Positions 19,683 through 52,043 of a stretch of DNA of 64,000 nt are shown here, one piece after another. Location: contig CM066294.1 in NCBI GenBank assembly GCA_033816765.1, forward strand, positions 2,294,001 through 2,358,000, read 5' to 3'. Under the pieces are notes generated by a model. That model had not been told where the DNA came from. It did not search any database and was given only the letters and a program-made list of their open reading frames with translations. This stretch comes from Nothopassalora personata (lineage: Eukaryota > Ascomycota > Dothideomycetes > Mycosphaerellales > Mycosphaerellaceae). A program made the translations under genes and the position numbers. How positions within the stretch are numbered: position 1 is the stretch's first letter; every line of letters starts with the position of its first letter.

Positions 19683-20453
19683 ATGTCGGCCGTGCCCTCC
19701 TCGCCGCCATTCTCTGGCCGCTCCGCCTCCTCCAGCAGCACCAGCAGCGACAGCACCACCAGCGCCGCAGAAGACGAGCGCCGCCAGGCGGCTCTGGTGC
19801 GCGACGCACCCAGAACGCCTGGTGGTCGCAAGCGACCAGCATCACCCTCGCAGCCACCAACGCCCTCGCCAGCCACCAAGCTCTCGCAGAGAATCAACAT
19901 GTGCATGCGGTGCCTCCCGTACTTCGTCAGGGGTAAGTCTCCACGCGCGTCGCCTGCGATTCGCATGCTAACCACTTGCTAGACGAGGCCGATGACTGTG
20001 ATAGTGTCACCACCGGCGAGCTCCTGAAGAAGTGTGGCCGCTGCAGGCGCAGCAAACACAGCTGCGTGCCCAACACCAGCCACGCCATCGCCTCGCTGGT
20101 GAGCCGCCTGCGCGCCGCGCGGTCCCAGCGCGACTTCCTCACGGCCATGATGGGCCAGGCGCCCACAGACCTCCAGCAGCAGGAGCTGGTGGAGCAGATC
20201 CGCCTGTGTGCCCAGCTGGGCAACGACATCAAGGAGGTAAGTCGCTGCTTCGCTCGTGCGAGTCGACTGCTACTCGCGGGGGAGGGCTCTAGTGCGTCCC
20301 CTGTGCTTCGGCTGACCCTTCCTATAGGCCATCAGGCAGTTCAATGCCTACAAGCACAAGCGTGCCGGGGAGACCCGCATGCGTGCCTCCGCCGCCGCCG
20401 CCACCACTGCCGACCAGGCATTCTTGCCTGAGTCACTGCGTGACGACAACTGA
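19683..20453 (+). CDS. Antisense zinc-cluster/coiled-coil protein of element B, 209 aa, three exons
   Basis: Exons are 19683-19932, 19983-20236 and 20328-20453. Intron 1 (50 nt) has GTAAGT, GCTAAC and AG; intron 2 (91 nt) has GTAAGT, GCTGAC and CCTATAG. Splicing gives one frame ending at TGA. The product has a Ser/Pro-rich N-terminus (1-70). Six cysteines at 74, 77, 89, 101, 104 and 111 give C-X2-C-X11-C-X11-C-X2-C-X6-C, close to the fungal Zn2Cys6 DNA-binding domain with longer first loops. A probable coiled coil (about 118-170) and an Ala-rich tail follow. The third Cys exists only after intron 1 is spliced. The gene is antisense to gag-pol, so its introns are kept during retrotransposition. 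Sequence-specific DNA binding is inferred, not shown. Confidence 0.82.
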
Positions 20454-20587
20454 GGCGCTCGCCTCACACGCTGCTCGCGGGCTCCTCGCCTGCTACCACT
20501 CTGCGTGGCCCCTGGTGGGCGCGCCACTCTTCAGCTTTTGTTTTGTTTATAGTTGAGAAAAGTTTTGTCTGTGCTCCAGTGCCAGTC

Positions 20588-23500
20588 TCATTTGCTTCTC
20601 CTTGACGCCTCATAGCCGGCTACCATGCGATCCGCATTCGCGAGGCCCTCCGCCGGTTCCCAGCTGTTGTACTCCTCTGGCCAGTCCTTCCACTGGACTA
20701 GATACTGCAGCTTGCCCTTGCGCTTACGCCTATCCAGCACTGCCTCTACCTCATACTCTCCGTCCTCATTAGCTAGAGGGGGTACGGGTCCATCCTCATC
20801 GCTACCGATATACGGCTCGAGGAGAGAGACATGGAAGACGTTGTGGAGCCTTGAGTCGGCTGGTAGCGCTAGGCGGTACGCCTGCGAACCGACAGCGTCC
20901 GTAATGCGGTATGGGCCGATGAACTTCGGACCCATCTTCTTCTTTGGCACTGCCAACTTGAGGTTCTTCGTTGACAACAGGACTAAGTCACCTACGCGGT
21001 AGGTCTTGGCTTGGTGGGTCTTGTTGTAGTAGCGAGCCTGGCTTTCTGCTGCAGCCTTCCATCGCTCCTCGAGTGTAGCGCGTAGTTTTCGCATGCGACT
21101 CGCAGCTGTTACCGCTGCTGGTACTTCCCCCCCCTGGGTCTCGTCTCGAGATCCAGTTGGTGCAGGGGCAATCTCAGGTCGCCAACCGTGCGCTATTTCG
21201 AACGGACTCATCCGCAGTGTTGGGTGGATGCTGTTATTAGCTGCGAATTCAGCAACTGCAAGCCACTCAGCCCACTCAGTTTGATTGTCACTGCAGTAAC
21301 AACGAAGGTATTGTTCGAGGGTTTGGTTTGCCCTCTCAGTTTGGCCGTCAGTCTGAGGGTGAAAGGCCGTGGATAGCTTGCGCTTCACACGCGCCTCGAA
21401 GCAGAAGTCACTCCAAAACTGACTAGTGAAGACCGGACCTCGGTCGCTCACTATGCCTGACGGGACACCATAGTGTCGCACGACTTCGTCTCGCAGGAGC
21501 CTCGCAAGCTCCACGGCTGTGCAAGTCTTCGTCGTCGGGATGTACAAGCTCATTTTTGAGTAGCGATCGACTATCACTAGGATCGCATCATACACGCAAC
21601 CGGCTCGCGTGCTTGGAGGTAGGTCCGTAATGAAATCCATGGTGATTTCCTGCCACGGTCGCTCCGGTCTAGGAAGCGGTTGCAGCTCGCCGTAGGGTCG
21701 ATGGCGCCTCGCCTTCGAACCCTGGCAGGTTCTGCAGGCTTGGACGTATTGTTTCACGTCCGTGCTAAGTGAGTCCCACCAATAATTACGTCGCAACAGC
21801 TCTTCAGTCTTGGTCCTTCCAAAGTGACCCGCGAGGACGTCGTCGTGGTGCATGCGAATCAGATGCGACCTGATTGCGTGATCCCTGGGTACCACGATCG
21901 CGTCTCCGCAGTACACAAGGTCATCCTTCACATGCCATCCCTTGGCGTCCCTCGCGCTTGGCGCCTGCGCCAAGCATGGGACACACTGGTCGTCTTGCTG
22001 CTGCGCGATCTTCATCAAGAGTGGGATCAACTCACCCGTCGAGCTGTAAGCTTGACCCTGTATCACTGCAGCGCACACTGCTGCTGGTAAAGACGGCTTG
22101 TCTTGATGGGGAAGGTCACCTCTCCGCATTGCCATCGCCGCGCCTATGTCGCCCTGCATCGCCTCGCAGGTGGCAAGCACGCGCTTCACCGTCGGCTCGC
22201 TTGTCCCTTCCAGAGACTCCTTCCAGAAAGACAGCTTACTTTGCAAGGTAGGCAGCAAGTTCGAAGTTTGTTGCGTTATGGCTGCGTAGTCACTGCGTCT
22301 CGAAGGCGCGTCGGCTGGGTTAGTCTTACCCGGCCGATGCTCCACTACAAAATCAAAAGACTGCAGGAACGTAGCCCATCGAGCTTGCCGCCCATTCAGC
22401 TGCTTTACTGTCATGAAGCCCTGTAGGTTAGCGTGGTCGACTAGCACTCGCACCGCATGCGTAGCGCCCTCCAAGTATGGCCTCCAATGCTTGAAAGCCT
22501 CAACCACTGCAAGTAGCTCCTGATCGTGCGTCTCGTAGTTGCACTCAGCTGGTATCATCTTGCGTGAATAGAACGCGATGGGATGCCACTCAGCACCAAA
22601 CAATTGGGATATGATACCTGCGATCGCGAAACCTGAGGCATCCGTCTCGACTCGCGTGCGCAGCGCAGGATCGAAGTGCCTAAGTATTGGTGCACCTAAG
22701 AATCCGGCCTTAAGCTGTCGAAACGCCTGCTCTTCGCTTAAGGTCCACGTGAGAGGGCCGTGCTTCTTGCCGTCCTTGGATCCCTTTAGCAGGTCCGTTA
22801 GGGGCTTGCAGACCCTTGAGTATCCTTCTATAAAACGCCGGTAGAAGTTGCAAAACCCAAGGAAGGACTGGACCTCATGAAAGGTCGTAGGTGTAGGCCA
22901 TTCCTCGATAGCGGCTACCCTGCTCCTGTCCATCGACACGCCTGCGGCGCTCACGACAAACCCAAGGAACTCTGCACTCTCCTGGAAGAAGTGACACTTC
23001 TTAGGGTTTGCGAACAGGGCAAACTTTCGTAGCCTCTCCAGCACCGCGCGTACGGCTCGCACGTGTGCCTCACGCGTCTCGCTGTAGATGAGGATATCAT
23101 CTAGGTAGACCACGCAAATGTCATCAACTAAGCCGGTCAGCGCCTTGTTGATATACCCTTGAAAGGTTGCCGGTGCGTTGGTTAACCCGAACGGCATCAC
23201 CAGGTACTCGTAGTGTCCGTATCGCGTGCGAAACGCAGTCTTCCACTCATCGCCTCGCTTAATAGGGATACGATGGTAGGCGTCCTTCAAATCGATTGTA
23301 GTGAAGAACCTGGAACCTGATAGCCTATCTAGCGTCTCGCTGATTAGGGGCAGGGGGTATCGGTTCTTCACTGTAATCTCATTCAGGCCTCTGTAATCAA
23401 CACAGAGCCTAAGAGTGCCATTCTTCTTTGGCACGAACAGGATAGGCGCACCCGCCTCGCTTGCGGACCGCCTAATCCACCCCTTCTCCATTGCTTGCGC

Positions 23501-24540
23501 AAGGTACTCCTTCAAGGCCTCCAACTCAGTCAAGGACTGGTGGTACAGCGGCTTGAAAGGGGGTTTCTTTCCTTCAACGAGATCAATCGCATGCTCAACC
23601 CCGTCGGGCATCTTGCGCTTCGCCTGCTCATTAGGTGCGTATACATCTCGGAAGTCTGCAAATTCTTCAGGCCACGAGGGGCCCTCTCCTTCAGGTACTG
23701 CTGCAGCAATAGCCCGAACACTCATCGCATAAACCTGCTTTGAGCTCTCGAGATCCTCAAGGAACTCGCGTGCGTCACGCTGCTGAACCGCAGGCGTCTC
23801 TGCACCGTAGTACCACTGGTCATCCTTATCGGCCTTCACTATCCGATTACGATGCCGCCAGGGTCTACCCAAAATCACTGATGGCCTACCCATAGGCACC
23901 GCGTAGCAGATGGCGTCACTCACGCGCTCTACTCCCGCGTCATCAGCGAGTCGCAGCCGAACCGCAAAGGCGCCGTAGCAATACCCTGGGTCATGCGCAT
24001 ACGACTCTAACTTCGGCAGCCTTGCCCCATCAATGGGTTGCATTTGATGTCGGAGTACATACTCATACGACACTAGGCTGAGATCCGCACAGTCATCCAG
24101 GAGAAACGTGGCCTCGCGAAAGCCCTCACGAGTCTCGACTGCGCCTCGCAAGTGACGCGCTGGACACGCATCCACTCGCCTCAAGGGGTCGACTTCAGGA
24201 AAACTCGGACTCAGGAGCGACCCACTTCTGGTCCTCTGCCTTTTCCCTGGTCGCTGCGATGGACACACATCCACTCGCCTCAAGGGGTCGACTTCAGGAA
24301 AACTCGGACTCAGGAGCGACCCACTTCTGGTCCTCTGCCTTTTCCCTGGTCGCTGCGATGGACACACATCCACTCGCCTCAAGGGGTCGACTTCAGGAAA
24401 ACTCGGACTCAGGAGCGACCCACTTCTGGTCCTCTGCCTTTTCCCTGGTCGCTGCGATGGACACACATCCACTCGCCTCAAGGGGTCGACTTCAGGAAAA
24501 CTCGGACTCAGGAGCGACCCACTTCTGGTCCTCTGCCTTT
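20588..24540 (-). CDS. pol: Element B Pol polyprotein
   Basis: Read by -1 frameshift from gag; the open frame has no ATG near its start (a TTG lies at 24481, used here as residue 1). It begins with tandem 33-residue repeats created by duplication of the gag-pol junction. The protease has LDDCADLSLV near residue 124, with Cys in place of the usual Gly after the catalytic-position residues. RT has YLDD near 458 and RNase H has ETDASG near 613. Integrase has a zinc end, CRTC, near 913, then MDFIT (947), SDRG (1012) and DGQTERANQ (1047). The C-terminal chromodomain (YEVEAVL...VQWKDW...NSWEP) is at about 1235-1290. All domains appear intact. Chromodomains in this family are thought to direct integration to particular chromatin. 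Confidence 0.95.
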
Positions 24541-24568
24541 TCCCTGGTCGCTGCCCTTCTCAGTCAGA
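24173..24568 (-). repeat. Four tandem 99-bp repeats across the gag-pol junction
   Basis: The motif CACTCGCC recurs at 24173, 24272, 24371 and 24470, exactly 99 bases apart. Three units are essentially identical and one is diverged at its edge. In pol the unit encodes 33 residues (..VDVCPSQRPGKRQRTRSG..). Each unit carries another copy of the CCAGGGAAAAGG slippery segment and of the gag stop region. RIPed B' has only one unit, so the expansion is recent. Confidence 0.93.
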
Positions 24569-25674
24569 GCCTTCGCAGCGTCTACCCTGCGAACCGCTTG
24601 CGCGCCACGGTCCTTCCACAGGTGCCTGTTCGGGCAATCCGTCTTAATGTGACCCTTCTTATGGCATCCATAGCACTCCGCTTTGGTCCTATCAAAGGTC
24701 ACAGACGATCCGCCGGCGTCCCGCTGGTAACTCGCACCCGGGTCGCGCGACGCCTGACTATGCTTCTGCTGCTTCGAGCCACGATCGCTTCGCCCTTGGT
24801 CGCCCTCAGTCTCTCGCCTGCGGCGACCATGCTGCCCGCGGTCGTGCCCTCCGCTGCCACGCTCCGTGCTTTCAATGCGCGAAGCCAGGATCACCAGTTC
24901 CTCTCTGGTTGTTGGGATGTCATGAAACTTGACGATTGCGGACCGCAGGCCAGGCGCAAGCTTAGCGAGCATATGTCGCACGCGTTGCGCCTCCGTATAG
25001 TCCCCCAACTGATCCTCCATGACATCCAGCTCAGTCGCAAACTGACGCACTGTCTGGTTGTCCTTCTGTTTCACCGCCTCATACTCCAACATCACGTTGA
25101 GCACGCGGTTCACAGGATCGCCGCATGCGTCTCGACAGAACTCCTCAAAGTCCTGGTATGTATACCCTTTAAGGTCAAGGACGCTATGGTTGGCGTGCCA
25201 TCGCTCACTTGCCTCTCCGCTTAGGTACATAACCCCATACAGGACCTTTGACTCGTTCGTCGCATACGTGCCGCCTGAGAGGGCAAAGACAAGAGAGAGC
25301 TCCCTTAGGAATACCCGTGCTTTCTTGATCGAGTCCCCTCTAAAAGGCGTAGGTTCTTTGAGACGCAAACGTATCGCATGCGATGCGACCGCGCCTCGAG
25401 CTGCGATATCATCGTCAGTTACTACAGATGGAGGAGGGGGAGGGGGAGTAGGGGATAGTTCTCCGCCGGATTCGCCCTGAGGGTCCGCCGGCGGCACGCT
25501 TGCGTCCCGCAAGATCTCCAACTGTTCAATCTCCCTCTGTATCTCCTTCTCCTCAACCTCTGCCCGAAGGGCATCCCTCCTTGCGACTAAGGCTGCACGC
25601 CTCGCTTGTTGCTGGGCCCTAGGGCTCAGGGGAGCCGCAGGCGTAGCGCTGCTGTCGTCGCGTTCGGACTCCAT
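24508..25674 (-). CDS. gag: Element B Gag, 388 aa
   Basis: I choose ATG 25674, 26 bases from the primer site; an in-frame TTG at 25692 is less likely. There is an N-terminal charged coiled coil (about residues 20-62). A capsid-like region, including TPFRGDSIKKARVFLREL and a YLSGEASERW motif, is typical of Ty3/gypsy Gag. A basic linker is followed by a CCHC knuckle, CYGCHKKGHIKTDC, near residue 335. It ends ..GRGPEVGRS with the slippery heptamer about 30 bases before the stop. Confidence 0.93.
   Translation of the reverse strand: MESERDDSSATPAAPLSPRAQQQARRAALVARRDALRAEVEEKEIQREIEQLEILRDASVPPADPQGESGGELSPTPPPPPPSVVTDDDIAARGAVASHAIRLRLKEPTPFRGDSIKKARVFLRELSLVFALSGGTYATNESKVLYGVMYLSGEASERWHANHSVLDLKGYTYQDFEEFCRDACGDPVNRVLNVMLEYEAVKQKDNQTVRQFATELDVMEDQLGDYTEAQRVRHMLAKLAPGLRSAIVKFHDIPTTREELVILASRIESTERGSGGHDRGQHGRRRRETEGDQGRSDRGSKQQKHSQASRDPGASYQRDAGGSSVTFDRTKAECYGCHKKGHIKTDCPNRHLWKDRGAQAVRRVDAAKALTEKGSDQGKGRGPEVGRS
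24538..24544 (-). promoter_or_regulatory. -1 frameshift heptamer GGGAAAA, element B
   Basis: In the gag frame the codons read CAG GGA AAA GGC, so G-GGA-AAA is in the X-XXY-YYZ register. The pol frame (CCA GGG AAA AGG) is -1. This matches canonical slippery sites. A downstream stimulatory fold was not assessed. Confidence 0.75.
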
Positions 25675-25699
25675 GGCGTGTATGGATTGCAACGAAGAG

Positions 25700-25708
25700 A
25701 AGAATTAG
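25700..25708 (-). other. Self-primer binding site of element B
   Basis: Sense strand after the 5' LTR reads GTT then CTAATTCTT. The latter is complementary to AAGAATTAG in the sense LTR (plus-strand 25768-25776). The gap to the LTR is three bases, as in element C. Confidence 0.7.
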
Positions 25709-25711
25709 AAC

Positions 25712-25908
25712 TGTTAAGGGGATGTCGCAATGTATAGCACGCCCACGACCTGCCAGTCGTAGATGAACTAATTCTTGCCTTTTGTTCAAGACGCATCGCG
25801 CGTCGCAAGGTGTACTCATGCGTGTCACGTGCGGCTTGGCAGCCGGTCGCGACCGCATGTCACATGCAAGGCCACATGTAGGGGTTAGCCACTGGGCTGC
25901 CCCTTACA
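25712..25908 (-). repeat. 5' LTR of element B
   Basis: 197 bp, identical by eye to 19185-19381, followed by target copy TCATC. The predicted RNA 5' end is near 25776. Confidence 0.97.
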
Positions 25909-25913
25909 TCATC

Positions 25914-26174
25914 GTTAGTTACTATAGATAGAGGAGGGGGAGGGGGAGTAGGGGATAGTTCTCCGCCGGATTCGCCCTAAGGGTCCGCCGGCGGTACGCT
26001 TACGTCCCGTAAGATCTCTAACTGTTTAATCTCCCTCTATATCCCCTTCTCCTTAACCTCTGCCCGAAGGGCATCCCTCCTTACGACTAAGGCTACACGC
26101 CTCGCTTGTTACTAGGCCCTAGGGCTTAGGGGAGCCGTAGGCGTAGTACTACTATCGTCGCGTTTGGACTCTAT
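25914..26174 (-). pseudogene. gag: B' gag, N-terminal part, RIPed
   Basis: Matches intact B gag at 25413-25674. The ATG is mutated to ATA at 26172-26174. It rejoins 19184 across element B. Confidence 0.88.
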
Positions 26175-26211
26175 AGCGTGTATGGATTATAACGAAGGGA
26201 AGAATTAGAAC

Positions 26212-26407
26212 TGTTAAGGGATGTTACAATGTATAGTACGCCTACAACCTACTAGTCGTAGATGAACTAATTCTTACCTTTTGTTTAAGACGCATTACGC
26301 GTCGCAAGGTGTACGTATACGTGTTACGTGCGGCTTAGTAGCCGGTCGCGACCGTATGTTACATGTAAGGCTATATGTAAGGGTTAGCCACTAGGCTACC
26401 CCTTATA
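26212..26407 (-). repeat. 5' LTR of B', RIPed
   Basis: 196 bp, starting TGTTAAGGGATG and ending CCCCTTATA (mutated from TTACA), followed by target copy GCTAC. It differs from the other B' LTR by RIP-type transitions. Confidence 0.92.
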
Positions 26408-26412
26408 GCTAC

Positions 26413-27860
26413 TGTCTTTACGTAGTCCTTAATGAATTTCCGGTTATAGTTCGTTAGTCTAAGGAATAATTGTACGTCCTTAACTGTCTTTAGTTCTAGC
26501 TATTCTCTAATTAACTATATCTTTATAGGGTCGATCGTTATCCCTATAGTACTAATAATAAAGCCTAAGAATTTAACTTCTTTCTTATAGAATTCGCATT
26601 TCTCGGGTACCGTCTTAAATCCTAAACGTGTAAGTCGTTCGAATACGTCCTAGACTTGTTTTATATAATTCTAAAGGGACCCTTTCGTATAGACTAATAT
26701 GTCGTCTATGTAAGCGATAACGTATACGTCGAGTAGGTCTCTAAGTGTTTCGTTAACAAGGTCCTAATAGGATGCGGGTACGTTAGTTAATCCTATTAGT
26801 ATAACTAAGAATTCGTAAAGTCCGTATCTTATTCTAAAAGCGGTTTTCTATTCTTCTTCTTCTACTATCCGTATAGCGTAGAAGGCATCTCGTAGGTTAA
26901 TCTTCGTGTACTAGTCTAATCCGGTTAATCTATCTTATACTTCTTCGATGTTAGGTAGCGGGTATCGGTTCTTAATCGTAATCTCGTTTAACTTCCTATA
27001 GTCTTGTACAAGTCGCAACTTCCCATTTACTTTTAGAACGAACATATATAGAGTTCCTACACTTAAGGTAGATCTTCTTATCTATCCTTTAGCTAGCTTC
27101 TCCTTTAGCTATTCTCGTATAGTCTATAGCTCTTTCTTAGACATTTAATATAGGGGTCCCTATAGAGGCTCTTTCCCTAGCTAAATGTTTATCTTATAAT
27201 CCTATAGTTAGTGCTTAGGTAAGGCATCCTTACCTCTTTCCTCTTTAAAGAGTCGCGACTACTTACGATACTCTTTAGGAATACTTAACTCTAAGATGTT
27301 AGTATCCTTCGATAGTACGTTACTTCTATTACTACTAGTAACTTCGTAACCCGGCGGCCCTACGCTAGTGTCTATCCCGGTCGAAGGTAGTTCTTCTATC
27401 CTTCTATTCAGCGTAAGCTATATCCTATTTAGCTGTCTCTTTACCTTATCTACTAGCGAACGCTACCGCTACGTAGGCTAAATGTCGATAACGTAGTCGT
27501 ATTCCCTAAATGTAAGTACTCCTCTTCTCTAGTCGATTACTAGATTATGCTTTCTTAACTAAGGTATATCTAGTACGATATTATAACTAGCTATGTTAGT
27601 AATATCTAAGGTAATTTCCTCGTAGTGCCGTTAGATAGTAAGTAGTAACGGTATCGTCTCGCGTTCTATACTAGGTAAGGATAATCCGTCTACCGCGATT
27701 AATTTATAACCCTCTTTCTTCTTATAGGTAGCGATCCTATGTCTTATAATAAATGATTCGGAGGTAAAGTTCCCGCTTACTCCGGAATCTATTATAGCAT
27801 CTGTCTTATGCCCGTTAACGATAATCTTAGTTCGAAACACTATTGTCGTTAGTAATGCTT
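26413..27860 (-). pseudogene. pol: D' pol, N-terminal part (protease, RT), RIPed
   Basis: Aligns with intact D pol at about 54085-55570. A fragment at 27631-27840 still reads FRTKIIVNGHKTDAIIDSGV, the protease start with IDSG. The RT YMDD region is near 26700. It joins 5966 across B'. Confidence 0.9.
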
Positions 27861-29919: not shown

Positions 29920-30323
29920 TATTAGGTTTAGTATAACCTAATAATATTACAAGTTAAGAAGACAAGCTTAATCGGGTTTGTTCTCGGGCCGATAGGAAGT
30001 TAAGGGAGAGTAATAAAGTAGAAGCTATCTTGTCTTATAAAGATTAAGTAGCGGTAAGGTAGAGGTTAGGTTGTAGTGTATTCTAAATAGTAATATTAAA
30101 CAGTGAGTTAAACGCCTCGAAGCTATAAGGGATTCTTAGCGTTCCTAAATATAAAGGAGATTCGTAGATCTCGGTAATTAGTCTAATTAGTCTAAGTATA
30201 AGCAGTCTAATTAGTCTAAGCATAAGTAGTCTAATCGCTCTAAGTCTAAGCGCTTAGGTAGGATAAGTCACGTGTTCGTCTTATCGTTATAATTCTAGGG
30301 TCTATAGGAATCATTCCGTAATA
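29920..30323 (-). repeat. LTR of D' (sense 5' LTR), RIPed, with a different U3
   Basis: Shares U5/R (29920-30160) with the LTR at 3041. Its U3 is instead an array of AGTCTAA-type units (about 30175-30260) like the LTR at 49954-50333. It ends CCGTAATA. The following five bases, AATAG, do not match CTTAG at the other end. Confidence 0.8.
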
Positions 30324-32642: not shown

Positions 32643-32668
32643 ATTTACCGGTCCCGGGACCGGTAAAT
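32643..32668. repeat. Perfect 26-bp palindrome, copy 1
   Basis: ATTTACCGGTCCC followed by its exact reverse complement. It lies between the protease and RT parts of relic H. An identical copy is at 36483, and variants are at 579, 49198 and 58533. Confidence 0.95.
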
Positions 32669-40171: not shown

Positions 40172-40418
40172 TGTTAAGTTGAGACCTTATAGGATACGTA
40201 GTTAGCAGCGGAGTAGAGTAAGAGATTAATCTTTAACTGGCTAATAGCTACAGGGCATACAGCAATATATTAGGAACCAATGTGTTAATTGTGTTAGATG
40301 TCTATCTAAGCTAAAGGGGAGAGAAGGTGTCTTCCGACAAGCTAAGTTATCGTAGATGCCTTAGGCTATTAGATTATAACCTAACTGTTAGCTCCCCCTA
40401 AGATGCTATATCTTAACA
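40172..40418 (-). repeat. 3' LTR of copia F
   Basis: 247 bp, TGTTAAGTTGAG to ATCTTAACA, partly RIPed. Confidence 0.93.
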
Positions 40419-40599
40419 CTCCTACTTATCTTACATAGGAGGCTACAGTCTGCTCTTCTCCTATTAGTAGTATTTAGACCTCTATAACAGGTTGAGCTAG
40501 CTTATAAACCTCTAGAAGTGTGGACTAGTCTTTAGCTTTATGAACCTATCTACAACTATCTTAGATGTTAGGGTGTACTTAACAGTAATAAGCCTTCTC

Positions 40600-43500: not shown

Positions 43501-45094
43501 TTCCTAAAGTGTGCAAATCTTCTATGCTAAAGCTCCTACTGTTTTAGGTTAGTCTCTAATTTAGCAGTTATAAAGGCATTCTCCATTAGTAGTGCACATA
43601 ATAAGTAATATGCCCTTTCTTATAGTAGAGGAGAAATCTCATTAATAAATAGAACCCCCCTAAGGAGCCTTGTCTAGACAACAGTTTAGCTAGAGGGGGA
43701 TACAAGAGAAAATAAAGGAGGTTAGACACTAAACTACTTACTAAACTAGTTCTAAGAAACTAGGTTTACCCCTAGCTTAGGTATAAGTAGAACATCTTCT
43801 AAAACAACTTTCCTACTAGATCTCCTACTTATCTCTACAGTCCTAATATAAGTGGCTAACAAATGCCTACCTCCTACTTTGATCCATTTCTTCTTTATTA
43901 AGGGAGTTATAGATCTAAAGAGGCAGTTCTAGTTAGTTATATAGGATAAAGCATAAGAATTAAGTAACTACTCTAATAAGGGGAACTTGCCTTAGACTTC
44001 TGTAGTTAAGTGAGCCACTTTATTATACTTATTATTATTAGACATTGTCTTCTAGGATAAGTTGTATAAGTTAGGTAGCTCTTAGGTAGAGAAACCTTTC
44101 CTAGTCTTTCTTGTTTTAGAGGAAGGAGACTAGGCCTAGTTCTTCTAGAGTAATAGCATATTAGAGCTAAGTTTCTTTACTATTTTCTTAAGTTCCTCTA
44201 TAGAGGACTTCTCTCTTAGTGTTCTTCTTAAAGATGGTAGTAGAGATCTTCTCTTCTTAATATGTGTTGCATTCTAGGAGGATAGTGCTTAGGAATAAGA
44301 TCTAAGGACCTTCTTTACCTTAGAGAGACTAGGGCAGTCCTTAATAAGATAGTCCTTCTTATAGAGAAGGCAGGAAAGTAATCTTACCTAACCTAAGGGC
44401 CTAACCTAGGTGGCTGCTATACTATACTTAGCCTTAGAGGGATTCAATCTAGCCTCTTAAGCCTTAAGGATCTTTAAGGTCCTTTTATAATCTATCTTTA
44501 GCTAAGCTATAATGGTATCCCTAGCTATATAGTAGTTAGGTAGTAGTAAGCTTAAAAGCTAGGTTATTCTTATATTAGCTTTCCTATAGTGCTAGCCCTC
44601 TAGGTCAATATTAGCAATCCTCCTTCCGAGAGACACTAGGTGTGCCTATGCAGATCTAATAGTGAACTCTTCACTTATCTTAAAGTTTATAAACTGTTTT
44701 GTGAGCTTATGTGCATAGGTTAGTAACACCTAGCTGTACTTATTCTAGAGATGCACCTATATCTTAGCAGCTTTTCTAGATTCGTAAGAGCCCTTAAGCT
44801 CAAATTCATCTTCTTCTATAATCCTACTTAGGATACTAAAGCAGTAAGCTGCATTTTGTTTTGTCTATATTAGTGCATTAAGAATCTCTTTAATCTTAGT
44901 CTCTTCCTAGAGTTTTAGGTTCTCGCCCTTAATGTTATTAAATAACACTTCTAACAGGTCATTAATTACAAAGAATGCTAACTAGCTCTCTATCTTGTAT
45001 CTCTAAAGGTTGAACTATCTCTTCTAGTTATCTCTCCTAAGAATTGGGATTTTAGTTCCCTTCTCTTCTCCTTTCTCTTAGTGTAAATCCATAA
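40600..45094 (-). pseudogene. Copia F gag-pol, RIPed
   Basis: Sense minus. An ATG-like start is near 45094 and a degraded CCHC knuckle is near 44340-44390. An integrase/RT region follows, with many stops. The clearest remnant is 40905-41123, where AYYIKALKKIIRYLS then YYNSNYVMDKVDRVS match the RT/RNase H junction of copia elements. RNase H lies next to the 3' LTR, the copia order with integrase upstream of RT. No intact frame remains. Confidence 0.8.
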
Positions 45095-45538
45095 TAAATT
45101 GAATGTAATAAAACAAGGTGTATATGCTTTAAAGTCGTGGCTTAGGTCCTGCTAAGGCTTTTAGTATAGAATAGTAAGGTTCGTAGGTGTAGATACTAAG
45201 GCCTACTTAGTAGGGTAAAGAAAGAGCGGTATAGTCTCGGAGCTAGGATACAGGTCTGTCTCTCCTAGTAGAGTTCTAAATAACTTACTTAAAGTCCTTC
45301 TTAATAGTATCTCGATGTAGTTCTACCTATAGAGTGTCTTTAAGGTATTAGCTTATAGTAAGCCACATAGAGTCCTTTTCTAGATTACCTATTACTTAGT
45401 ATTAAACCAAGCTCCTTAATAGGACAGATAGGGTAGACTTCTACTTCCTAGATGTTTTCTGCTATAATAGCAAGGGATACAAGTAACCTGTACTAATATA
45501 GGTTGCTCTTACTACTGCATAAACTCGGGCTTATAACC

Positions 45539-45785
45539 TGTTAAGTTAAGACCTTATAGGATACGTAGTTAGTAGCGGAGTAGAGTAAGAGATCAATCTT
45601 CAACTAGCTAATAGCTACAGGGCATGCAGCAATATATTAGGAACCAATGTGTTAATTGTGTTAGATGTCTATCTAAGCTAAAGGGGAGAGAAGGTGTCTT
45701 CCGATAAGCTAAGTTATCGTAGATGCCTTAGGCTATTAGATCATAACCTAACTATTAGCTCCCCCTAAGATGCTACATCTTAACA
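45539..45785 (-). repeat. 5' LTR of copia F
   Basis: 247 bp, TGTTAAGTTAAG to ATCTTAACA, followed by TTACT. The sense sequence just inside (GGTTATAAGCCCGAG) may be a RIPed tRNA primer site, unlike the self-primer sites of A-D. Confidence 0.93.
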
Positions 45786-45876
45786 TTACTAGTACTAACG
45801 CTCACTTGTCTTACAAATGGCGTTTACGTTATTCGACTACCTAGCCCGCTCGATTAATGCTAACATAGCTGTCTAT
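45786..45876 (+). other. Element E fragment between F and C
   Basis: 91 bases matching the reverse complement of about 1105-1190. It shows that F and C both landed in the same E copy. Last five bases TCTAT are the C target. Confidence 0.85.
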
Positions 45877-45982
45877 TGTTACGGTTCGGACAAGACAACG
45901 TGGAGGAGTCTTACTGGACGGACTATAGCGTATCCTGGCAGTCGGATAGGCAGCAGTCGAGCAGTCGTGATCGAGCTACTCG

Positions 45983-46042
45983 GGTCGACCAGTGACTCAC
46001 CCGGATCGACCGACTGGTCGACCGACCAGGTCGTGCTCGACC
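45983..46042. promoter_or_regulatory. GGTCG/CGACC array in the C LTR
   Basis: Eight occurrences in both orientations, including GGTCGACC, just upstream of the TATA box. It is repeated at 48064-48123 in the other LTR. Candidate operator for the element's antisense-encoded zinc-cluster protein; binding is inferred. Confidence 0.6.
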
Positions 46043-46065
46043 AACCAGTCGCCAAGACATGGCAC

Positions 46066-46071
46066 TATATA
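46066..46071 (+). promoter_or_regulatory. TATA box of element C
   Basis: CACTATATAGACG, 34-39 bases upstream of the RNA start predicted from primer-site complementarity. Confidence 0.65.
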
Positions 46072-46228
46072 GACGACGCTCTTTTGCAAGTAGATAGGAG
46101 CCTCGTGCTCAACTCATTTTAAGTATACACCATATACTGTTTGGGACCACTACCTTCTCAACGAGTCAGAGACATCACTGCAAAGATCCAAGCCCAGTTG
46201 GGATAACGTACAGCGGTTCCTAACAACT

Positions 46229-46236
46229 TTGAGCAC
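46229..46236 (+). other. Self-primer binding site of element C
   Basis: After the LTR comes ACT then TTGAGCAC, complementary to GTGCTCAA at 46105-46112 in the LTR. The gap is three bases. Confidence 0.6.
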
Positions 46237-46257
46237 CACCACCAGGGCACTTTGCAT

Positions 46258-47250
46258 ATGTCTGGGAGAGACGCTACCCGGAGTCCGTCACGACAACAGC
46301 CACAGTCAACTGGCATCACGGAACGAATGAGCGAAATGTCGATTACAGGAAGCAGCAAGAACAACAACACTCCTATGGGTATGCTGAACCCATTGGACCA
46401 CCACCGTGCACCTAAGGTGTCTACGCCGGAGACGTTCGACGGGACCAAGGACAAACTGGAGGCTTTTCAACTGCAGGTTCAGTTGTACCTTCACTTCAAC
46501 GCACACCAGTTTCAAGGCGAGGCTTCTAAAGTCTTGTACGCCGCATCCTTCCTACGAGGAAAAGCAGCTAGAGGATTCCGACCATACCTCAAGGACTGGC
46601 TACACAACCAGGGCGAGGGAGAAACACCGAAAACGGAAACTCGAAAAATTTTCCACGACTACGACGAGTTTGAGACGAAACTCGATGATCTATACGGGAT
46701 ACCAAATGAGGAGGTATACGCCGACCGACATATCCGACAACTTCGACAGACTACTTCTGTAGCGCTGTACGCCTCAGAATTCCAAGGATATGCCGCCGAC
46801 CTGGAATGGAACGACGCAGCTTTGCGATCGCAGTTCTACCTCGGGCTGAAAGACAACGTCAAAGCCGAACTATCCCGAAACGCCAGCGTCGTTACGCTAG
46901 GGGCGATGATCAAGGCAGCAAAGGAGATCGACGAAAGGCTCCAGGATTTGAGGTACGACCGATTCGTACAGCCTGGATACCAGAGACCCGCCGCGGGCGG
47001 AAGAGGGGGCTTCAAGGCCAGAAGTCAGGACCCTAATGGTTACGGAGACCCAATGGAATTGGACGTAACGGAACGTAGGACAGGAAGGGGGCTGAAGAGC
47101 AAAGGTTCCACCTGCTACGTATGTGGCGAGCAAGGCCACTTTGCAAGAAACTGCAAGAAGAAGAACATGGTTAGCCGCGAGTTCAACGCAATGATTCGCG
47201 AAGAGAATACATACCAGGAATGCGAGAACTTCTTCTCGAAATCTGCCTAG
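46258..47250 (+). CDS. gag: Element C Gag, 330 aa
   Basis: ATG 46258 is the first in-frame ATG after the primer site. The capsid-like region includes TPETFDGTKDKLEAFQLQV, AASFLRGKAARGF and LPDD-like spacing typical of Ty3/gypsy Gag. It has the PMELDV motif and a canonical CCHC knuckle, CYVCGEQGHFARNC, near residue 285. PMELDVT and the knuckle context also occur in element D Gag, marking the two as related. It ends without any -1 pol frame behind it. An intact Gag in a pol-less element could help packaging when a partner supplies enzymes. Confidence 0.92.
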   Translation: MSGRDATRSPSRQQPQSTGITERMSEMSITGSSKNNNTPMGMLNPLDHHRAPKVSTPETFDGTKDKLEAFQLQVQLYLHFNAHQFQGEASKVLYAASFLRGKAARGFRPYLKDWLHNQGEGETPKTETRKIFHDYDEFETKLDDLYGIPNEEVYADRHIRQLRQTTSVALYASEFQGYAADLEWNDAALRSQFYLGLKDNVKAELSRNASVVTLGAMIKAAKEIDERLQDLRYDRFVQPGYQRPAAGGRGGFKARSQDPNGYGDPMELDVTERRTGRGLKSKGSTCYVCGEQGHFARNCKKKNMVSREFNAMIREENTYQECENFFSKSA

Positions 47251-47360
47251 CAGAAACAACCTGAGGACAGCAAGGCATCAAACAGCGGCTTCTTGATTTG
47301 ATGACCTAGGACACAGAAGTCAACAACGCAAACGGACGAATGACCATTGGATACCACAAC
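47251..47360. other. Gap between gag and the antisense gene in C
   Basis: About 110 bases, no gene seen. The two genes converge here. No recognisable pol remnant. Confidence 0.7.
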
Positions 47361-47861
47361 TTACGAGGGATGGCCATCCGGCCATGAAAACGGAGAAGCA
47401 ACGCCGGCTTCAAGAAGATCGTTCTCTAAACCAGGGAAGTCCGACAACTCAGGATCGTTGGGGTCGAACTCGGTGTTGGCCGCCAAGTGGCGCACCTGTT
47501 CCTCTACCTTCTTGTTGTTTTCGTCGCGAACCTTCCTGTTTCGTTCGATGCGATGACGGATTTCGTCTACTCTACGAAGGAGGGCAAGGGCCTGCGCGGT
47601 TATCCTTTCCGCGTCCTTCTCGTCCCTCACGATCTTCTCGGACAACTCATCGACGACACGGTCCAACCGAACAAGAGAGGTCGAAACGCAGGAATTGCCG
47701 TTGCGCGTGCATTTGGCGCAGGACATGATGGAGAAGTCGGCGATGACAACACAACAGGAGTTGGTTTTGGCGCAGTTCTCGCAGGGATATGGCGGGAAGA
47801 GAGGATTCGCAAAGATACGTGCGAGACGACGATTGCGGGATGAAGTGCTCGTAGATGACAT
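47361..47861 (-). CDS. Antisense Zn2Cys6/coiled-coil/acidic-tail protein of element C, 166 aa
   Basis: Starts at ATG 47861. An upstream in-frame Met at 47921 is possible, but the shorter start matches the MSSS start of the D' and D2 homologues. Cysteines 27, 30, 37, 48, 51 and 58 form C-X2-C-X6-C-X10-C-X2-C-X6-C, exactly within the fungal Zn2Cys6 consensus. A basic N-terminal stretch (SRNRRLAR) precedes it. A charged coiled coil (about 65-130) is followed by an acidic, hydrophobic-dotted tail (PNDPELSDFPGLENDLLE), as in activation domains. Single exon. It converges with gag and begins 97 bases from the U3 end of the 3' LTR. It looks like a complete small transcription factor; target and sign of regulation are unknown. 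Confidence 0.82.
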   Translation of the reverse strand: MSSTSTSSRNRRLARIFANPLFPPYPCENCAKTNSCCVVIADFSIMSCAKCTRNGNSCVSTSLVRLDRVVDELSEKIVRDEKDAERITAQALALLRRVDEIRHRIERNRKVRDENNKKVEEQVRHLAANTEFDPNDPELSDFPGLENDLLEAGVASPFSWPDGHPS

Positions 47862-47942
47862 GGCGAAGTTGCAATTGCGGAGGGAATTTGGACGAACACC
47901 GCTCTTTATGACTAATGACACGTGATCGCTGGGACATCGATC

Positions 47943-47957
47943 TTAGGAGGGGGATGG
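47943..47957 (+). other. Polypurine tract of element C
   Basis: TTAGGAGGGGGATGG directly before the 3' LTR; GGGGGATGG plus TGTTA is shared with element D. Confidence 0.85.
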
Positions 47958-48306
47958 TGTTACGGTTCGGACAAGACAACGTGGAGGAGTCTTACTGGAC
48001 GGACTATAGCGTATCCTGGCAGTCGGATAGGCAGCAGTCGAGCAGTCGTGATCGAGCTACTCGGGTCGACCAGTGACTCACCCGGATCGACCGACTGGTC
48101 GACCGACCAGGTCGTGCTCGACCAACCAGTCGCCAAGACATGGCACTATATAGACGACGCTCTTTTGCAAGTAGATAGGAGCCTCGTGCTCAACTCATTT
48201 TAAGTATACACCATATACTGTTTGGGACCACTACCTTCTCAACGAGTCAGAGACATCACTGCAAAGATCCAAGCCCAGTTGGGATAACGTACAGCGGTTC
48301 CTAACA
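47958..48306 (+). repeat. 3' LTR of element C
   Basis: 349 bp, identical by eye to 45877-46225, followed by target copy TCTAT. Short open frames inside both LTRs are not separate genes. Confidence 0.96.
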
Positions 48307-48311
48307 TCTAT

Positions 48312-48760
48312 TCCCTCGCTAGTTTCGTAGCATATAATAACGTAGTACGACGGGCGCGAGTCGCGGATTATCGACGTTACTATTACGGTCTCTATTAAAG
48401 AAATCCTTTCGACCTTTATAAACTGTCGCTAGTAGGCCCTAGGATTGCCTAACATCTTATATGTTAAGCTAAATAGTAGGGTAAGCTACTATACTACTAT
48501 AAGACTACCTTAGCTTATAGCGACTAACTGCACTACCTATATTGCCCGGGCTTACTACTTTAGAACCTAAGGACAGGTTCGTAATAGGGGAGGATATATT
48601 AACGACTAATAGGTTATATTAACCTTAGGTTTAGAGGGGGGGGTCCCTTAGGTCTAACTTGCCCTAATTTTATTTAGGTTTAATTAGACATTTAGGTAAG
48701 CTAGTAGGACCTAGTATAGCTATTAAGATATATAATGCGTAGCTAAGCATTGTAAGCGTA
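48312..48760 (+). other. Element E fragment, RIPed
   Basis: Reverse complement of about 690-1100, continuing E after C. No open gene. Ends in GCGTA, the target of the solo LTR. Confidence 0.8.
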
Positions 48761-49076
48761 TGTTAGGAACCGCTGTACGTTATCACAACTCGGGCTTGGA
48801 TCTTTGCAGGGATGTCTCAATCAGTTATGAAGGTAGTGGTTCCAAACAGTATATGGTGTATACTTAAAATGAGTTGAGCACGAAGCTCCTATCTACTTGC
48901 AAAAGAGCGTCGTCTATATAGTGCCATGTCTTGGCGCGGTCTGTCCTGCTCTCTCGGTAGAGCACTAAGAGCGCTCTGCTATGAGTCACACAAGAGCGCC
49001 CGCTCATTGGCAGCGCGTGTCCCTATTCCCAACGAATGAAGTTCTTCCACGTGCACGATCGTACCGGACCGTAACA
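48761..49076 (-). repeat. Solo LTR related to element C
   Basis: 316 bp, TGTTAGGAACC to CCGTAACA, with target duplication GCGTA (48756-48760 and 49077-49081) and no internal region. About 160 bases (R/U5, at 48761-48925) match the C LTR in reverse, including the GTGCTCAA start segment. U3 is unrelated: GGTCG motifs are absent and AGAGCGC/GAGCAC-type units appear instead. It is not RIPed. Confidence 0.92.
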
Positions 49077-49081
49077 GCGTA

Positions 49082-49290
49082 GCATTAAGGCATTAATTCA
49101 ATTTATACCTCTCGAGTAGAGGGTATAGGGGTTTAGGTCCGCTAATCCTCTTATTTTATCTAGCTACTACGCTAGTCGTTACGTAACCTAATTTCACGGT
49201 CCCGGGACCGGCAAATACCTCTGCTTACATAAGCGCCGCTCTATACTACCACAACTCGGACAGGCCTATATAGGGTAGTTAGTAGACATT
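49082..49290 (+). other. End of element E, right copy
   Basis: Reverse complement of about 496-720. Contains the palindrome variant at 49198-49209 and an outer 80 bases shared with 496-578 and 58452-58532. No gene. Confidence 0.75.
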
Positions 49291-49397
49291 ACTACCTAGC
49301 CGATTAATAAGAATAGGGACACAACTTATAAATAAGTACCCTAATAAGTCTCTACCCCTAGGGACTCGCCCTAAGGCTCCGCTCTAGAAAGCGCCGC

Positions 49398-49880
49398 TTA
49401 GTTATTTACGGGTATCTCTAGGATATCCGAGAAAGAAACTAGCGAAGGTAACACCTCTACCCCCGACGCCCGCTTAAGAGACGCTAGCTCCTCGCGCGCC
49501 TCTTCTTCCTCGAGCTCCTCTAACTCCTTAGCGACGGTATCGTCGGTGCGACGCTTAGCTAATCGTAGCTATTTCCGAAGACGGATCTTACGTATCTTTA
49601 GCCGTACCTCCTCCTCTTTAATCCTCTTAAGCTCTAGCTTAAGATTATCGCGCGAATTGCGAAGACGTTCCTACTCCGGACGAGAAAGACGCACATCGTA
49701 ATCCTTATAGCCTTTTCAAATATAGGCCGAACACTTTCTAGACCGAGAACCTACGATATACTTTACTACTACGCCCGAGGATCGAGACTTCTAACAATTC
49801 GTGTATAGAGCTATTTCAATACTAGAAATTTTAGTATCCTAAGTAAGTCGTTAACGGCGTTTATAGGAGGAAGAAGACAT
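49398..49880 (-). pseudogene. Antisense zinc-cluster gene of D2 (RIPed)
   Basis: Reads in one frame from ATG 49880 to TAA 49398 with several RIP-type stops. Reverting TAT to TGT restores C-X2-C-X11-C-X8-C-X2-C-X7-C in the first third. Then comes DVRLSRPE[W]ERLRNSRDNLKLE, a coiled coil matching EWERLRNQRRKLKRE of element D. It ends in an acidic tail, FSDILEIPVNN. It gives the uninterrupted reference frame that shows the D gene has a one-base shift. Confidence 0.78.
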
Positions 49881-49953
49881 AGTTAACTATTACTATAAGA
49901 AATGATAACGGTTTAGGAAGCTTCGGGACGAAGCTAGGCTAAGAAGGGGATAG

Positions 49954-50333
49954 TGTTACGGAATAATTCCTATAGACCCTAGAATTATAACGACAAGACA
50001 AATACGTAACTTATCCTACCTAAGCGCTTAGACTTAGAGCGATTAGACTACTTATGCTTAGACTAATTAGACTAATTACCGAGATCTACGAATCTCCTTT
50101 ATATTTAGGAACGCTAAGAATCCCTTATAGCTTCGAGGCGTTTAACTTACTATTTAATATTACTATTTAGAATACACTATAACCTAACCTCTACCTCACT
50201 ACTACTTAATCTTTATAAGATAAGATAGCTACTACTTTATTACTCTCCCTTAACTTCTAATCGGCCCGAGAATAAACCCGATTAAGCTTATCTTCTCAAC
50301 TTATAATATTATTAGGTTATACTAAACCTAATA
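49954..50333 (+). repeat. 3' LTR of D2, RIPed
   Basis: 380 bp, TGTTACGGAATAATTCC to CTAAACCTAATA, preceded by purine tract AAGAAGGGGATAG. It is the inverted counterpart of the LTR at 29920-30323, with a similar AGTCTAA-type U3 array. Only the 3' end of this element remains here, joined to E near 49290. Confidence 0.85.
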
Positions 50334-50878
50334 CTATTATCTAAATCCTTAGGTTCAATTAGGTTACTTAAGGATATAAATAGGCGGATGAATTTCTTTA
50401 TATCCTATTCTTCGGGCCTCTTACCTTACTACGCCCTAACAATCTCCTTAAGATATTCCCGACTCCCTAATATCGAGTAGGCGTTAAACCTTAAGAACTC
50501 TAATAAGAACGCCCTCCTAAAACGTACCTTATTAGTAAGCTACCTAGGCAGTCTTATAACTATACGCCGGATAGTAGTTTCGCAATTGCGCTTAAATCTA
50601 CCCTAGAAATTATCCTTCTTAATAGATGCCCGAGGCGGATACTAGTCTATTAGGTCGCTAAACCGCTCCTAGAACTTAGTAGCATTAGTGCTATTAAAGA
50701 ACGGATTCTTAGCACCTCCTAGAGGTAGAAAGCGAGAGCTAGCGTTTTCTATTGCTACTACTAATCGTCTAAAGAGGGCAGTTATAGTATCTATTCTAAT
50801 TGTGCTATTCGTTCCTACACCTATACCTAATTTAGCGGCGCTAGTTCCGCTTCTCCCTTCTTTACTAGATTTAGGTGT
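50334..50878 (-). pseudogene. gag: Relic G: RIPed gypsy gag, cut by element D
   Basis: Minus frame with mutated stops reads segments such as FLLEFLRFNAYSILGSREYLKEIV and FIRLFISLSNLIEPKDL in broken form, typical of a Ty3/gypsy capsid region. Element D is inserted at GGTGT (50874-50878), and the N-terminal side continues at 58051. No matching pol is nearby. Confidence 0.6.
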
Positions 50879-51313
50879 TGTTATTGTCTCGTTCCAGGGC
50901 TAGTCTCAAAAGAGAGATAAGTCAAGTCACGTGGCGGTATTATTCTTTGGAGAGGCTGAAGCAAGCTGAGCGAAGATGAATGATAGGAATAAGAGTTGTA
51001 TTCCAATCAGTGAGATAGTAACATGAGTTGAACGCATCAGAACCATAAGGGTTTCTAGCGTTCCTAAATACAAAGGAGGTTCGTATGCCATCCGGTGTTA
51101 GATGTCCGTCTGTCCACTCGACCGGTCGTCTGGTCGTGTGGTCGTGTACGTCCATACGCTACTTCTGCGGTCGTGTTCGACCATGCACTAAGCGCGCGGT
51201 CGTGCACGTGACCCGGACGTGGGGTCCCTTTCTCTTCCTAGCGATTGGTTCGTGTCTTCTGATTCTTCCTCCCCATGCCACGTCCTGCACCGTCCTTCAT
51301 CCGAACCGTAACA
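50879..51313 (-). repeat. 3' LTR of element D
   Basis: 435 bp, TGTTATTGTCTCG to CCGAACCGTAACA. Seven GGTCG/CGACC motifs lie at 51119-51202 in U3. TTGAACGC at 51028-51035 pairs with the primer site. A TATTTA-like box lies about 36 bases upstream of that segment in the sense direction. Confidence 0.97.
51119..51202. promoter_or_regulatory. GGTCG/CGACC array in the D LTR
   Basis: Occurrences at 51119, 51124, 51132, 51140, 51169, 51178 and 51198, within 84 bp and about 180 bases from the antisense start codon. The same array is in the 5' LTR (51119+6732 onward). Candidate operator, by inference. Confidence 0.6.
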
Positions 51314-51328
51314 CCATCCCCCTTCCTG
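51314..51328 (-). other. Polypurine tract of element D
   Basis: Sense strand AGGAAGGGGGATGG before the 3' LTR, nearly the same as in C. Confidence 0.85.
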
Positions 51329-51382
51329 CTGAAACTCGTCCTCGAGTTTTCTTTCTTCTCCTGTGAGTTCCCATCTTTTACC

Positions 51383-51983
51383 ATGAGCGGCGAGCGGCTA
51401 ACACGTCAGGAGCGCCGCGAACGTCAAGCACTAGGCATCGAAGCCGAGGGCCGCGAGATGCCATCCCCATGTTCTGGTTGTCGAAAGGCCAGAGTGCCTG
51501 AAGGAAAGAAGAGTCCTCGTTGTGTGGTGGATGTGCGCTTTGGGTGTTGTTCGGAGTGCGTTCGCAAGGGTGTCAAATGTGACGTGACTGTCACGTGGAC
51601 TTGAGTGGGAGCGGCTTCGCAACCAGCGTCGAAAGCTGAAGCGAGAGCTTGATGAGGCTGAAGAGAAGGTGACAGAGGCGATGTCAAAGGTGCATCGTCT
51701 TAGGAAACAACTGCGCGTTGCTGAGGACAGGGAGGAAAAGGCGATAGCGAAGGATTTCGAGGATCTTCGCAGTTTGCCGAGCGTGGGTGTCGATGCCTTT
51801 TCCGCGCCTTCGTCCTGTCTTCTCGTTCCTGAAGGTAGCCCCGAAGAGCTAGAGGGGGTTTTCCAGATGTCGATTCCTTCCTGGGAGGACCTTTCGATGA
51901 TTCCGGATGATGCCCTCTGGTCATATCCGACCCTTGAGGACGCCGCAGCAGCTTCTTCGAGCGCTGGTCCTTCTGGTGGATAG
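51383..51983 (+). pseudogene. Antisense zinc-cluster gene of element D, frameshifted
   Basis: The first part (51383-51604) has an Arg/Glu-rich N-terminus, then cysteines 30, 33, 47, 56, 59 and 66: C-X2-C-X13-C-X8-C-X2-C-X6-C. The frame then meets TGA at 51602. The continuation is in the next frame from about 51597: LEWERLRNQRRKLKRE coiled coil, LRKQLRVAEDREEKA, then an acidic tail (EELEGVFQMSIPSWEDL) to TAG at 51981. Relative D2 reads straight through, with 15 rather than 16 bases in the linking segment. So one extra base at about 51585-51600 breaks this copy, unless it is a sequencing error or there is an unrecognised short intron. A basal intact product would be about 199 residues. Confidence 0.72.
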
Positions 51984-52043
51984 GTGTTTGGTTTCTCATA
52001 GGAGATATGTTCGTGTAAGTTCTCCGTTTCCCTTATTAAACCT

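Follow-up and report, generated by a model that had tools for sequence, protein, structure and literature searches.

Antisense genes for zinc-cluster-like proteins and adjacent U3 motif arrays appear to be exchanged as one cassette among Gypsy elements of a fungal genome

Long terminal repeat (LTR) retrotransposons are generally thought to use host transcription factors. Fungal Gypsy elements with an antisense gene have a published precedent in brtn of the Boty-like elements of Botrytis cinerea (Zhao et al. 2011, Virology 417:248; via PMC8365987). Here, we describe antisense genes in a 64,000-nucleotide stretch of the Nothopassalora personata genome (contig CM066294.1, positions 2,294,001 to 2,358,000; G000:C8:2294001-2358000; hereafter, the window), which is packed with nested LTR elements, many of them altered by repeat-induced point mutation (RIP). 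Two of these elements, C and D, carry antisense genes that are, by sequence, real and homologous. Comparisons across the searched genome (54.5 Mb, 40 contigs) indicate that such a gene and the neighboring U3 region appear to be exchanged together, as one cassette, between otherwise nearly identical elements. The initial annotation of the window had held that no family of this kind was described, which is too strong in view of brtn as cited in PMC8365987.

Like the genes described here, brtn is an accessory gene antisense to the element that carries it, a Gypsy LTR element of an ascomycete, but its title and the passage citing it, on which the comparison is based, mention no zinc cluster, U3 arrays, or cassette exchange (PMC8365987). 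The plant elements Retand, Grande, and RIRE2 likewise have an antisense open reading frame (ORF) between pol and the 3′ LTR, and the excerpts consulted ascribe to Retand a predicted DNA-binding TRP28 domain, a proposed regulatory role, and family-specific tandem repeats; however, TRP28 is a different domain, the repeats are located between pol and the LTR, and these excerpts report no U3 exchange (PMC7264820, PMC11963269). The HBZ gene of human T-cell leukemia virus type 1 (HTLV-1) is likewise antisense, driven by the 3′ LTR, and encodes a transcription factor affecting the 5′ LTR, but this factor belongs to another family, being a basic leucine zipper protein that keeps CREB-2/Tax off the 5′ LTR (PMC10186651, in part). 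In crapaud of Podospora (Westerberg et al. 2024, PMC10787394), U3 likewise occurs in many diverged subfamilies on a conserved R/U5, and the portions consulted discuss template switching and promoter competition; a figure legend gives crapaud two ORFs, GAG and POL, and the word "antisense" is absent from the main text of that paper. As far as the consulted portions of these sources extend, none of brtn, the plant antisense ORFs, HBZ, and crapaud combines a zinc cluster, a motif array, and exchange. For fungal LTR elements, the literature searched, which covers subscription journals partially, yielded neither an antisense gene of the zinc-cluster type nor a cassette of U3 and gene, and the cassette is therefore new as far as found.

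A domain scan identified elements A, B, and D as autonomous chromodomain Gypsy elements and found only gag in C. Element C (45877..48309, + strand) is a non-autonomous mini-element composed of LTR, gag, antisense gene, and LTR, without pol. Its LTRs (45877-46228 and 47958-48309, +) are 99.7% identical, and its gag (46258..47250, +; 330 amino acids) contains Retrotrans_gag and zf-CCHC domains. As annotated initially, the antisense gene of C is a single exon between gag and the 3′ LTR (47361..47861, −; 166 amino acids), and its product has a six-cysteine cluster, a predicted long helix, and an acidic tail. Element D (50879..58045, −) is an autonomous Ty3/Gypsy chromovirus with reverse transcriptase, RNase H, integrase, and chromodomain, 100% identical LTRs (50879-51313 and 57611-58045, −), a pol ORF supported by the domain scan (52147..55572, −), and a gag ORF (55575..57593, −). 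Its antisense gene (51383..51983, +) is located where it was annotated but is not intact, having a frameshift near position 51600, a stop at codon 74, and its tail in another frame; the full-length D-type protein (199 amino acids) is present at other loci of the genome. The U3 of the C 3′ LTR (47958..48139, +) contains a CGACC/GGTCG array (8 CGACC in 165 tested nucleotides) whose edge is 96 nucleotides from the antisense ATG, and the array in the U3 of the C 5′ LTR (45877..46058, +) is identical in kind. A CGACC array is also found in the U3 of the D 3′ LTR (51072..51313, −; 7 CGACC in 234 tested nucleotides), with its edge 69 nucleotides from the antisense ATG. The window additionally contains a RIPed antisense gene of an autonomous type, L058 (49347..49880, −; 79% identity by tblastn), which was absent from the initial list.

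Genome searches at E ≤ 0.001, in which the best candidates were scored and RIPed copies counted, gave at least 98 matches for the C query, at least 201 for B, at least 151 for D, and at least 150 for L063. We chose 15 C/D-type families as distinct identity levels among stop-free matches, with L073 and L077 met along the way; comparisons among families exclude RIPed copies. We label the families class I (C, L065, L061, L060, L062, and L063), class II (D, L056, L058, L064, L057, and L059), and class III (L072, L073, and L077). Four of them have autonomous cores (D, L058, L060, and L073), and the other 11 are mini-elements with gag of 329-330 amino acids (for L077, coverage is limited to the part between the gag end and the TATA box). 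LTR pairs are 99.7-100% identical in the mini-elements seen, other than L061 (93%), 100% in D, L060, and L073, and 98% in L058 (L058 and L060 being partly covered), and this near-identity implies that most families moved recently. Beyond this genome, 59 of 7,997 scored public proteins are relatives of the C/D family at E ≤ 0.01. They are known as proteins only, their named sources are Xanthoria, Cladosporium, Cryoendolithus, and Camillea, which we take to represent three classes of Pezizomycotina, and 0 of 59 have a precomputed Pfam domain. Searches of viral contigs (query P0002, a public class II relative) and of plasmids (query C) found no relatives. Elsewhere in the genome, a tandem array at G000:C12:1355698-1366475 comprises six antisense genes of the L065 type, together with six gags, at a spacing of exactly 2056 bp, and adjoins a D-type gene at 1354153.

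The cassette is delimited by changes in identity. A block that begins where gag (or pol) ends, spans the antisense gene and U3, and stops just short of the TATA box is 23-49% identical between families. Among elements of one core type, by contrast, identity is mostly 93-100% in gag, pol, TATA, R, and U5. Pairwise differences among the antisense proteins of 12 families amount to 35-80%; the gag DNA of mini-elements is 95-100% identical. In windowed comparisons of mini-elements with the first core type, identity drops from mostly 0.93-1.00 to 0.23-0.49 at about 50 bp past the gag stop, remains there through the antisense gene and U3, and is high again from the TATA box onward (border windows, 0.79-0.84; two inner windows, 0.87). 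Families L062 and L064, which have a second gag type, reach 0.95-1.00 in the core (0.87 in its last window) and 0.24-0.65 in the block. When the two mini cores are compared with each other, gag identity is 0.85-1.00 and R-U5 identity mostly 0.33-0.68. The autonomous D and L073 are 0.92-1.00 identical over ~5.6 kb from the TATA box to near the pol 3′ end, and then 0.72 and 0.44 at that end, 0.88 over a tRNA-like stretch, and 0.23-0.48 in the block. Autonomous L058 behaves like D and L073, and the L060 core is more diverged.

The association of gag with the antisense gene is regular. The C gag protein is 98-100% identical in 121 scored genome copies (the best 121 of 1,045 candidates), and 83 of these are linked to an antisense gene, always on the opposite strand (83/83) and at a distance nearly fixed per family, in a count that omits RIPed and autonomous-type matches. 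Two of the 38 remaining gag copies were inspected, and both have the gene: L076, of the L064 type, with a frameshift upstream of the zinc cluster, and L077, a new family. In L074, a deletion copy, the antisense gene is truncated and the LTRs are identical. The antisense gene has the same position in autonomous D, L058, L060, and L073, and it accompanies gag in the pol-less mini-elements. Plant TR-GAG elements are likewise non-autonomous LTR-gag-LTR elements without pol; the mini-elements described here differ in adding an antisense gene.

We rejected the alternative that the antisense gene of each element diverged rapidly by vertical descent, in favor of exchange, because synonymous divergence (dS) of the antisense genes is saturated (lowest of 8 pairs, 2.8) while third-position differences in gag amount to 0.3-2.1% in five pairs. 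Template switching would be a natural route for this exchange, the gene and U3 being neighbors at the RNA 3′ end, and the same step is discussed for crapaud in the consulted part of PMC10787394.

The antisense proteins of the C/D family have a conserved cysteine arrangement. The pattern C-X2-C-X(6-13)-C-X(5-12)-C-X2-C-X(6-8)-C is present in all 15 family proteins and in none of 30,000 residue shuffles. Nine of the 15 families (classes I and III, including C) fit what we take to be the Zn2Cys6 (PF00172) spacing, C-X2-C-X6-C-X5-12-C-X2-C-X6-8-C; the six class II families, including D, have 11-13 residues between Cys2 and Cys3, outside the canonical 6. The proposed exact fit of C to the fungal pattern is borne out for this spacing (C-X2-C-X6-C-X10-C-X2-C-X6-C) but not for the stricter PROSITE pattern, which fits 3 of the 15 families, C not among them. 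The Pfam domain Zn_clus scores 21 bits in L062, equal to the cut-off of 21, and falls below it in P0001 (12.0), L060 (11.4), L072 (10.4), L065 (10.1), and the D fragment (9.7); the Pfam scan returned no Zn_clus match for window C, B, L063, L064, L056, L057, L059, L058, L073, or L077. The six-residue stretch separating Cys2 from Cys3 is 12% identical among C, L065, L061, L060, and P0001, versus 71% for the next ten residues (L062 and L063, with a different spacing, are excluded).

The predicted structure of C is Zn2Cys6-like. Its AlphaFold2 model places short helices after the two CxxC pairs and a helix at residues 61-129, with a weakly modeled tail, and all 13 of the matches listed in a fold search are Zn2Cys6 DNA-binding proteins, at low Z. 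In a comparison of the A1 profile with PDB sequences, Leu3 is the top match but is not significant (E = 0.026). The coiled coil of the initial annotation corresponds to a long predicted helix in both models made, those of C and of P0002, these being two models only. The acidic tails reported for C and D are supported by the charge of the C-terminal residues, and net charge over the last 60 residues is −2 to −15 in 14 of 15 families and 0 in L077. The proteins resemble fungal Zn2Cys6 factors (Gal4, Put3, Ppr1, Hap1, and Leu3) in predicted fold (weak matches, for C), cysteine pattern, a helix after the cluster, and an acidic tail, but are much smaller, have no fungal_trans domain among the matches listed, and, in class II, depart from the Cys2-Cys3 spacing.

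The antisense frames also bear marks of selection. In six of seven diverged family pairs, third codon positions are 0.35-0.47 identical versus 0.61-0.81 at positions 1 and 2 (seventh pair, L062-L064: 0.34 versus 0.44-0.52), and frame-blind DNA alignments of six pairs give the same pattern in the antisense frame. Together with the residue shuffles, this pattern rules out chance ORFs. The nonsynonymous-to-synonymous rate ratio (omega) is 0.000-0.137, and omega = 1 is rejected in 8/8 pairs (2 delta lnL = 66-115); because dS is saturated, we use only this rejection of neutrality. Selection at the protein level and the retained architecture amid sequence divergence, both initially proposed for the antisense genes, are supported for C and D.

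Upstream of the TATA box, U3 contains short repeated motifs that differ between families, some being common to several: CGACC in C, D, and L056; CGAGC in L061 (18 copies); TGATCA/CTCAG in L064 and L058; GAGAGC with GATC in L073, L059, and L057; and GAGAGC in L072. U3 repeat content exceeds that of all 1,000 dinucleotide shuffles in 10 of 14 families, and was reached by 1, 17, and 18 of 1,000 shuffles in L063, L057, and L060, respectively. No array was detected in R-U5 (0/12 families; lowest, 167/1,000 shuffles). The antisense ATG is 69-102 nucleotides from U3 in 14/14 families. The array partly follows the protein, as judged from sequence similarity: U3 follows protein similarity in pairs with at least 50% protein identity (a cut-off chosen after the data were seen), and the U3 of the mini-element with the closest protein ranks, among ten and for k = 5, 6, and 7, 1, 1, and 1 for D, 3, 1, and 1 for L058, 3, 2, and 2 for L073, and 6, 7, and 7 for L060.

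We consider it probable that every element encodes a zinc-cluster regulator of its own, with matching sites in U3, and that the two are exchanged as one cassette. The gene family, the six cysteines, the limits of the cassette, and the arrays are read from sequence, and the fold and long helix are predictions. The C/D-type protein would be a small fungal-type Zn2Cys6 protein, with an N-terminal cluster, a long coiled coil for dimerization, and an acidic tail with aromatic residues. We infer that it binds zinc and DNA, recognizes the short repeated motifs in its own element's U3, and regulates the LTRs of that element, most likely as an activator of the 5′ LTR and hence of genomic RNA; the acidic tails lead us to prefer an activator over a repressor. 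With the 3′ LTR array beside its start codon, the protein may also activate its own gene from a divergent, self-feeding promoter of the kind found at GAL1-GAL10. The gene and U3 adjoin each other at the 3′ terminus of the genomic RNA, so that a single template switch downstream of gag or pol, followed by normal strand transfer at R, could bring both to a new core, which would explain the exchanged cassette as well as the pol-less mini-elements that keep gag and the antisense gene. In favor of the transcription factor role first proposed for the antisense genes of C and D are their membership in one family, selection at the protein level, six conserved cysteines, a Zn2Cys6-like fold predicted for C, acidic tails, and U3 arrays.

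Several observations weigh against a regulator with matching sites. Zn_clus is found at E ≤ 1 in 5 of 13 proteins, and, among those scanned singly (L061 not among them), only L062 reaches the cut-off. The fold search with the confident model of the class II relative P0002 found no zinc-cluster structure, which does not show its absence. U3 and protein similarity are not significantly correlated over all pairs of 12 families (Spearman 0.09-0.14, P = 0.12-0.23) or over cross-core pairs (0.02-0.12, P = 0.20-0.44), and the correlation is 0.11-0.17 with 14 families. In the autonomous-mini comparison, L060 misses, L073 is never first, and L058 is first only at k = 6 and 7 (sum-of-ranks P = 0.03-0.07). 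L065 lacks a significant U3 array (102/1,000 shuffles), CGACC is common to C and D despite 29% protein identity, and the C, L065, and L061 proteins are 57-63% identical while their U3s are dissimilar. Moreover, joint inheritance of neighbors alone would give some link between gene and U3. Finally, 17 of 25 near-identical D copies among the matches listed are broken (10 by one TGA, 3 by one TAA, and 4 split by a frameshift, including the window copy) and 8 are intact, which means that copies can spread even when their own product is missing. The TGA of the four D copies fetched is at the same site, inside the zinc cluster. Disabled D-type versions are themselves multi-copy, and defective copies therefore spread; this fits a trans-acting product and equally fits a dispensable one.

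The same DNA-binding protein might instead repress its own LTR or control its copy number, conferring an immunity in which resident copies silence new ones; a new cassette would then escape silencing, and exchange would be favored. Cassettes do diverge on constant cores, as phage immunity regions do, and the spread of the broken D copies (17/25) would be expected for an inhibitory product. HTLV-1 HBZ also lowers transcription from the 5′ LTR (PMC10186651, in part). The acidic, aromatic tails, however, resemble activation domains (net charge being negative in all families but L077), and the presence of the gene in pol-less mini-elements would be odd for a pure brake, and we regard a repressor as unlikely. 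Less likely still is a protein that acts elsewhere (in integration targeting, as a nucleic-acid chaperone, or on host genes) while gene and U3 co-diverge as neighbors in a recombining block. The lack of a significant global U3-protein correlation agrees with such a role, and the arrays could be products of slippage, but R-U5, on the other side of U3, has no arrays and little divergence within a core type, and D and L056 have a common array motif on different cores. A further possibility, that recent amplification has preserved antisense ORFs without function, either relics or chance frames, has in its favor that B and D copies are near-identical, so that intactness inside one family proves little; the codon-position pattern, the rejection of omega = 1 in all eight pairs, and the 59 public homologues make it highly improbable.

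If each element does carry its own regulator, a group of ascomycete elements seems to possess a Gal4-like factor and matching sites that are traded as one piece. Tentatively, we conjecture that fungal Gypsy elements may be modular like phages, with a constant replication core (gag-pol, or only gag) and an exchangeable cassette of regulatory identity (zinc-cluster regulator and operator array in U3) that defines groups without cross-control, and that exchange by template switching would allow escape from regulation or competition; the hypervariability of U3 in crapaud might have the same cause. This offers a testable cause of U3 hypervariability and a reason for pol-less elements to keep gag and the antisense gene. 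The 15 pairs of protein and DNA motif are a natural set for rules of zinc-cluster recognition, and retroelement-borne zinc-cluster domains could feed host regulators.

At the core/cassette border of D, between the antisense gene and pol and on the antisense strand, is a tRNA-like sequence (52044..52117, +; Rfam tRNA, 34.6 bits), which also occurs in the L058 and L073 types (copies at L055 5442-5516, L058 1372-1446, L073 1395-1466, and L075 1219-1293; Rfam range, 34-52 bits) and was not found in L060. It contains A/B-box-like motifs and, in the L058 and D types, precedes a hairpin and a run of T5-T6, so that it looks like an RNA polymerase III unit. LTR elements with tRNA-like promoters (Helenus) are described in the consulted part of PMC10886601. 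We do not claim an amber-suppressor tRNA: ARAGORN reports a CTA anticodon in L055, L058, and L075, but the anticodon arm combines just four pairs with a long loop.

Element B (19184..25908, −), an autonomous Gypsy element with identical 198-bp LTRs and pol domains, has an antisense gene (19683..20453, +; 209 amino acids) that looks real from its two antisense-strand introns, without shown kinship to the C/D family. It holds up only as a predicted spliced gene of three exons (19683-19932, 19983-20236, and 20328-20453), both introns being GTAAGT...TAG. Their location on the antisense strand, from which they cannot be spliced out of the genomic RNA, would explain how a retroelement is able to retain them, and the introns lend indirect support to antisense transcription of B. 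We detected no homology of the B protein to the C/D profile A2 (hhalign probability 1.2%), to which it is unalignable, no public homologue at E ≤ 0.1 among 1,396 candidates, and no array in its LTR (212/1,000 shuffles); B is therefore rejected as a third family member, and the shared architecture and transcription factor role initially extended to it are not supported. Exon differences over 11 loci covering all exons are 0 or 1 per copy, all at third positions, too few for a test of selection. Repeat content of the stretch between the B LTR and ATG was reached by 0/1,000 shuffles, the top 6-mers being runs of ATG/ATC triplets. Element A (9501..16640, −) was correctly described as lacking an antisense gene: its pol ORF (9575-14110, −) reaches into the 3′ LTR (9501-9706), which has no array either (213/1,000 shuffles).

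The antisense genes reported for four RIPed relatives are partly recovered. B′ has the gene at 6491-7164, and B2 has a short match only (59198-59311). D′ gave no match, its alignable part ending before that end of the element, and the match beside D2 (3683-3892, +) is of the L063 type, not D. This RIPed L063-like fragment adjoins the D-like remnant D2, which suggests an older cassette exchange on that core. Immediately upstream of B pol, the window contains direct tandem repeats with 99-bp spacing (24058-24651).

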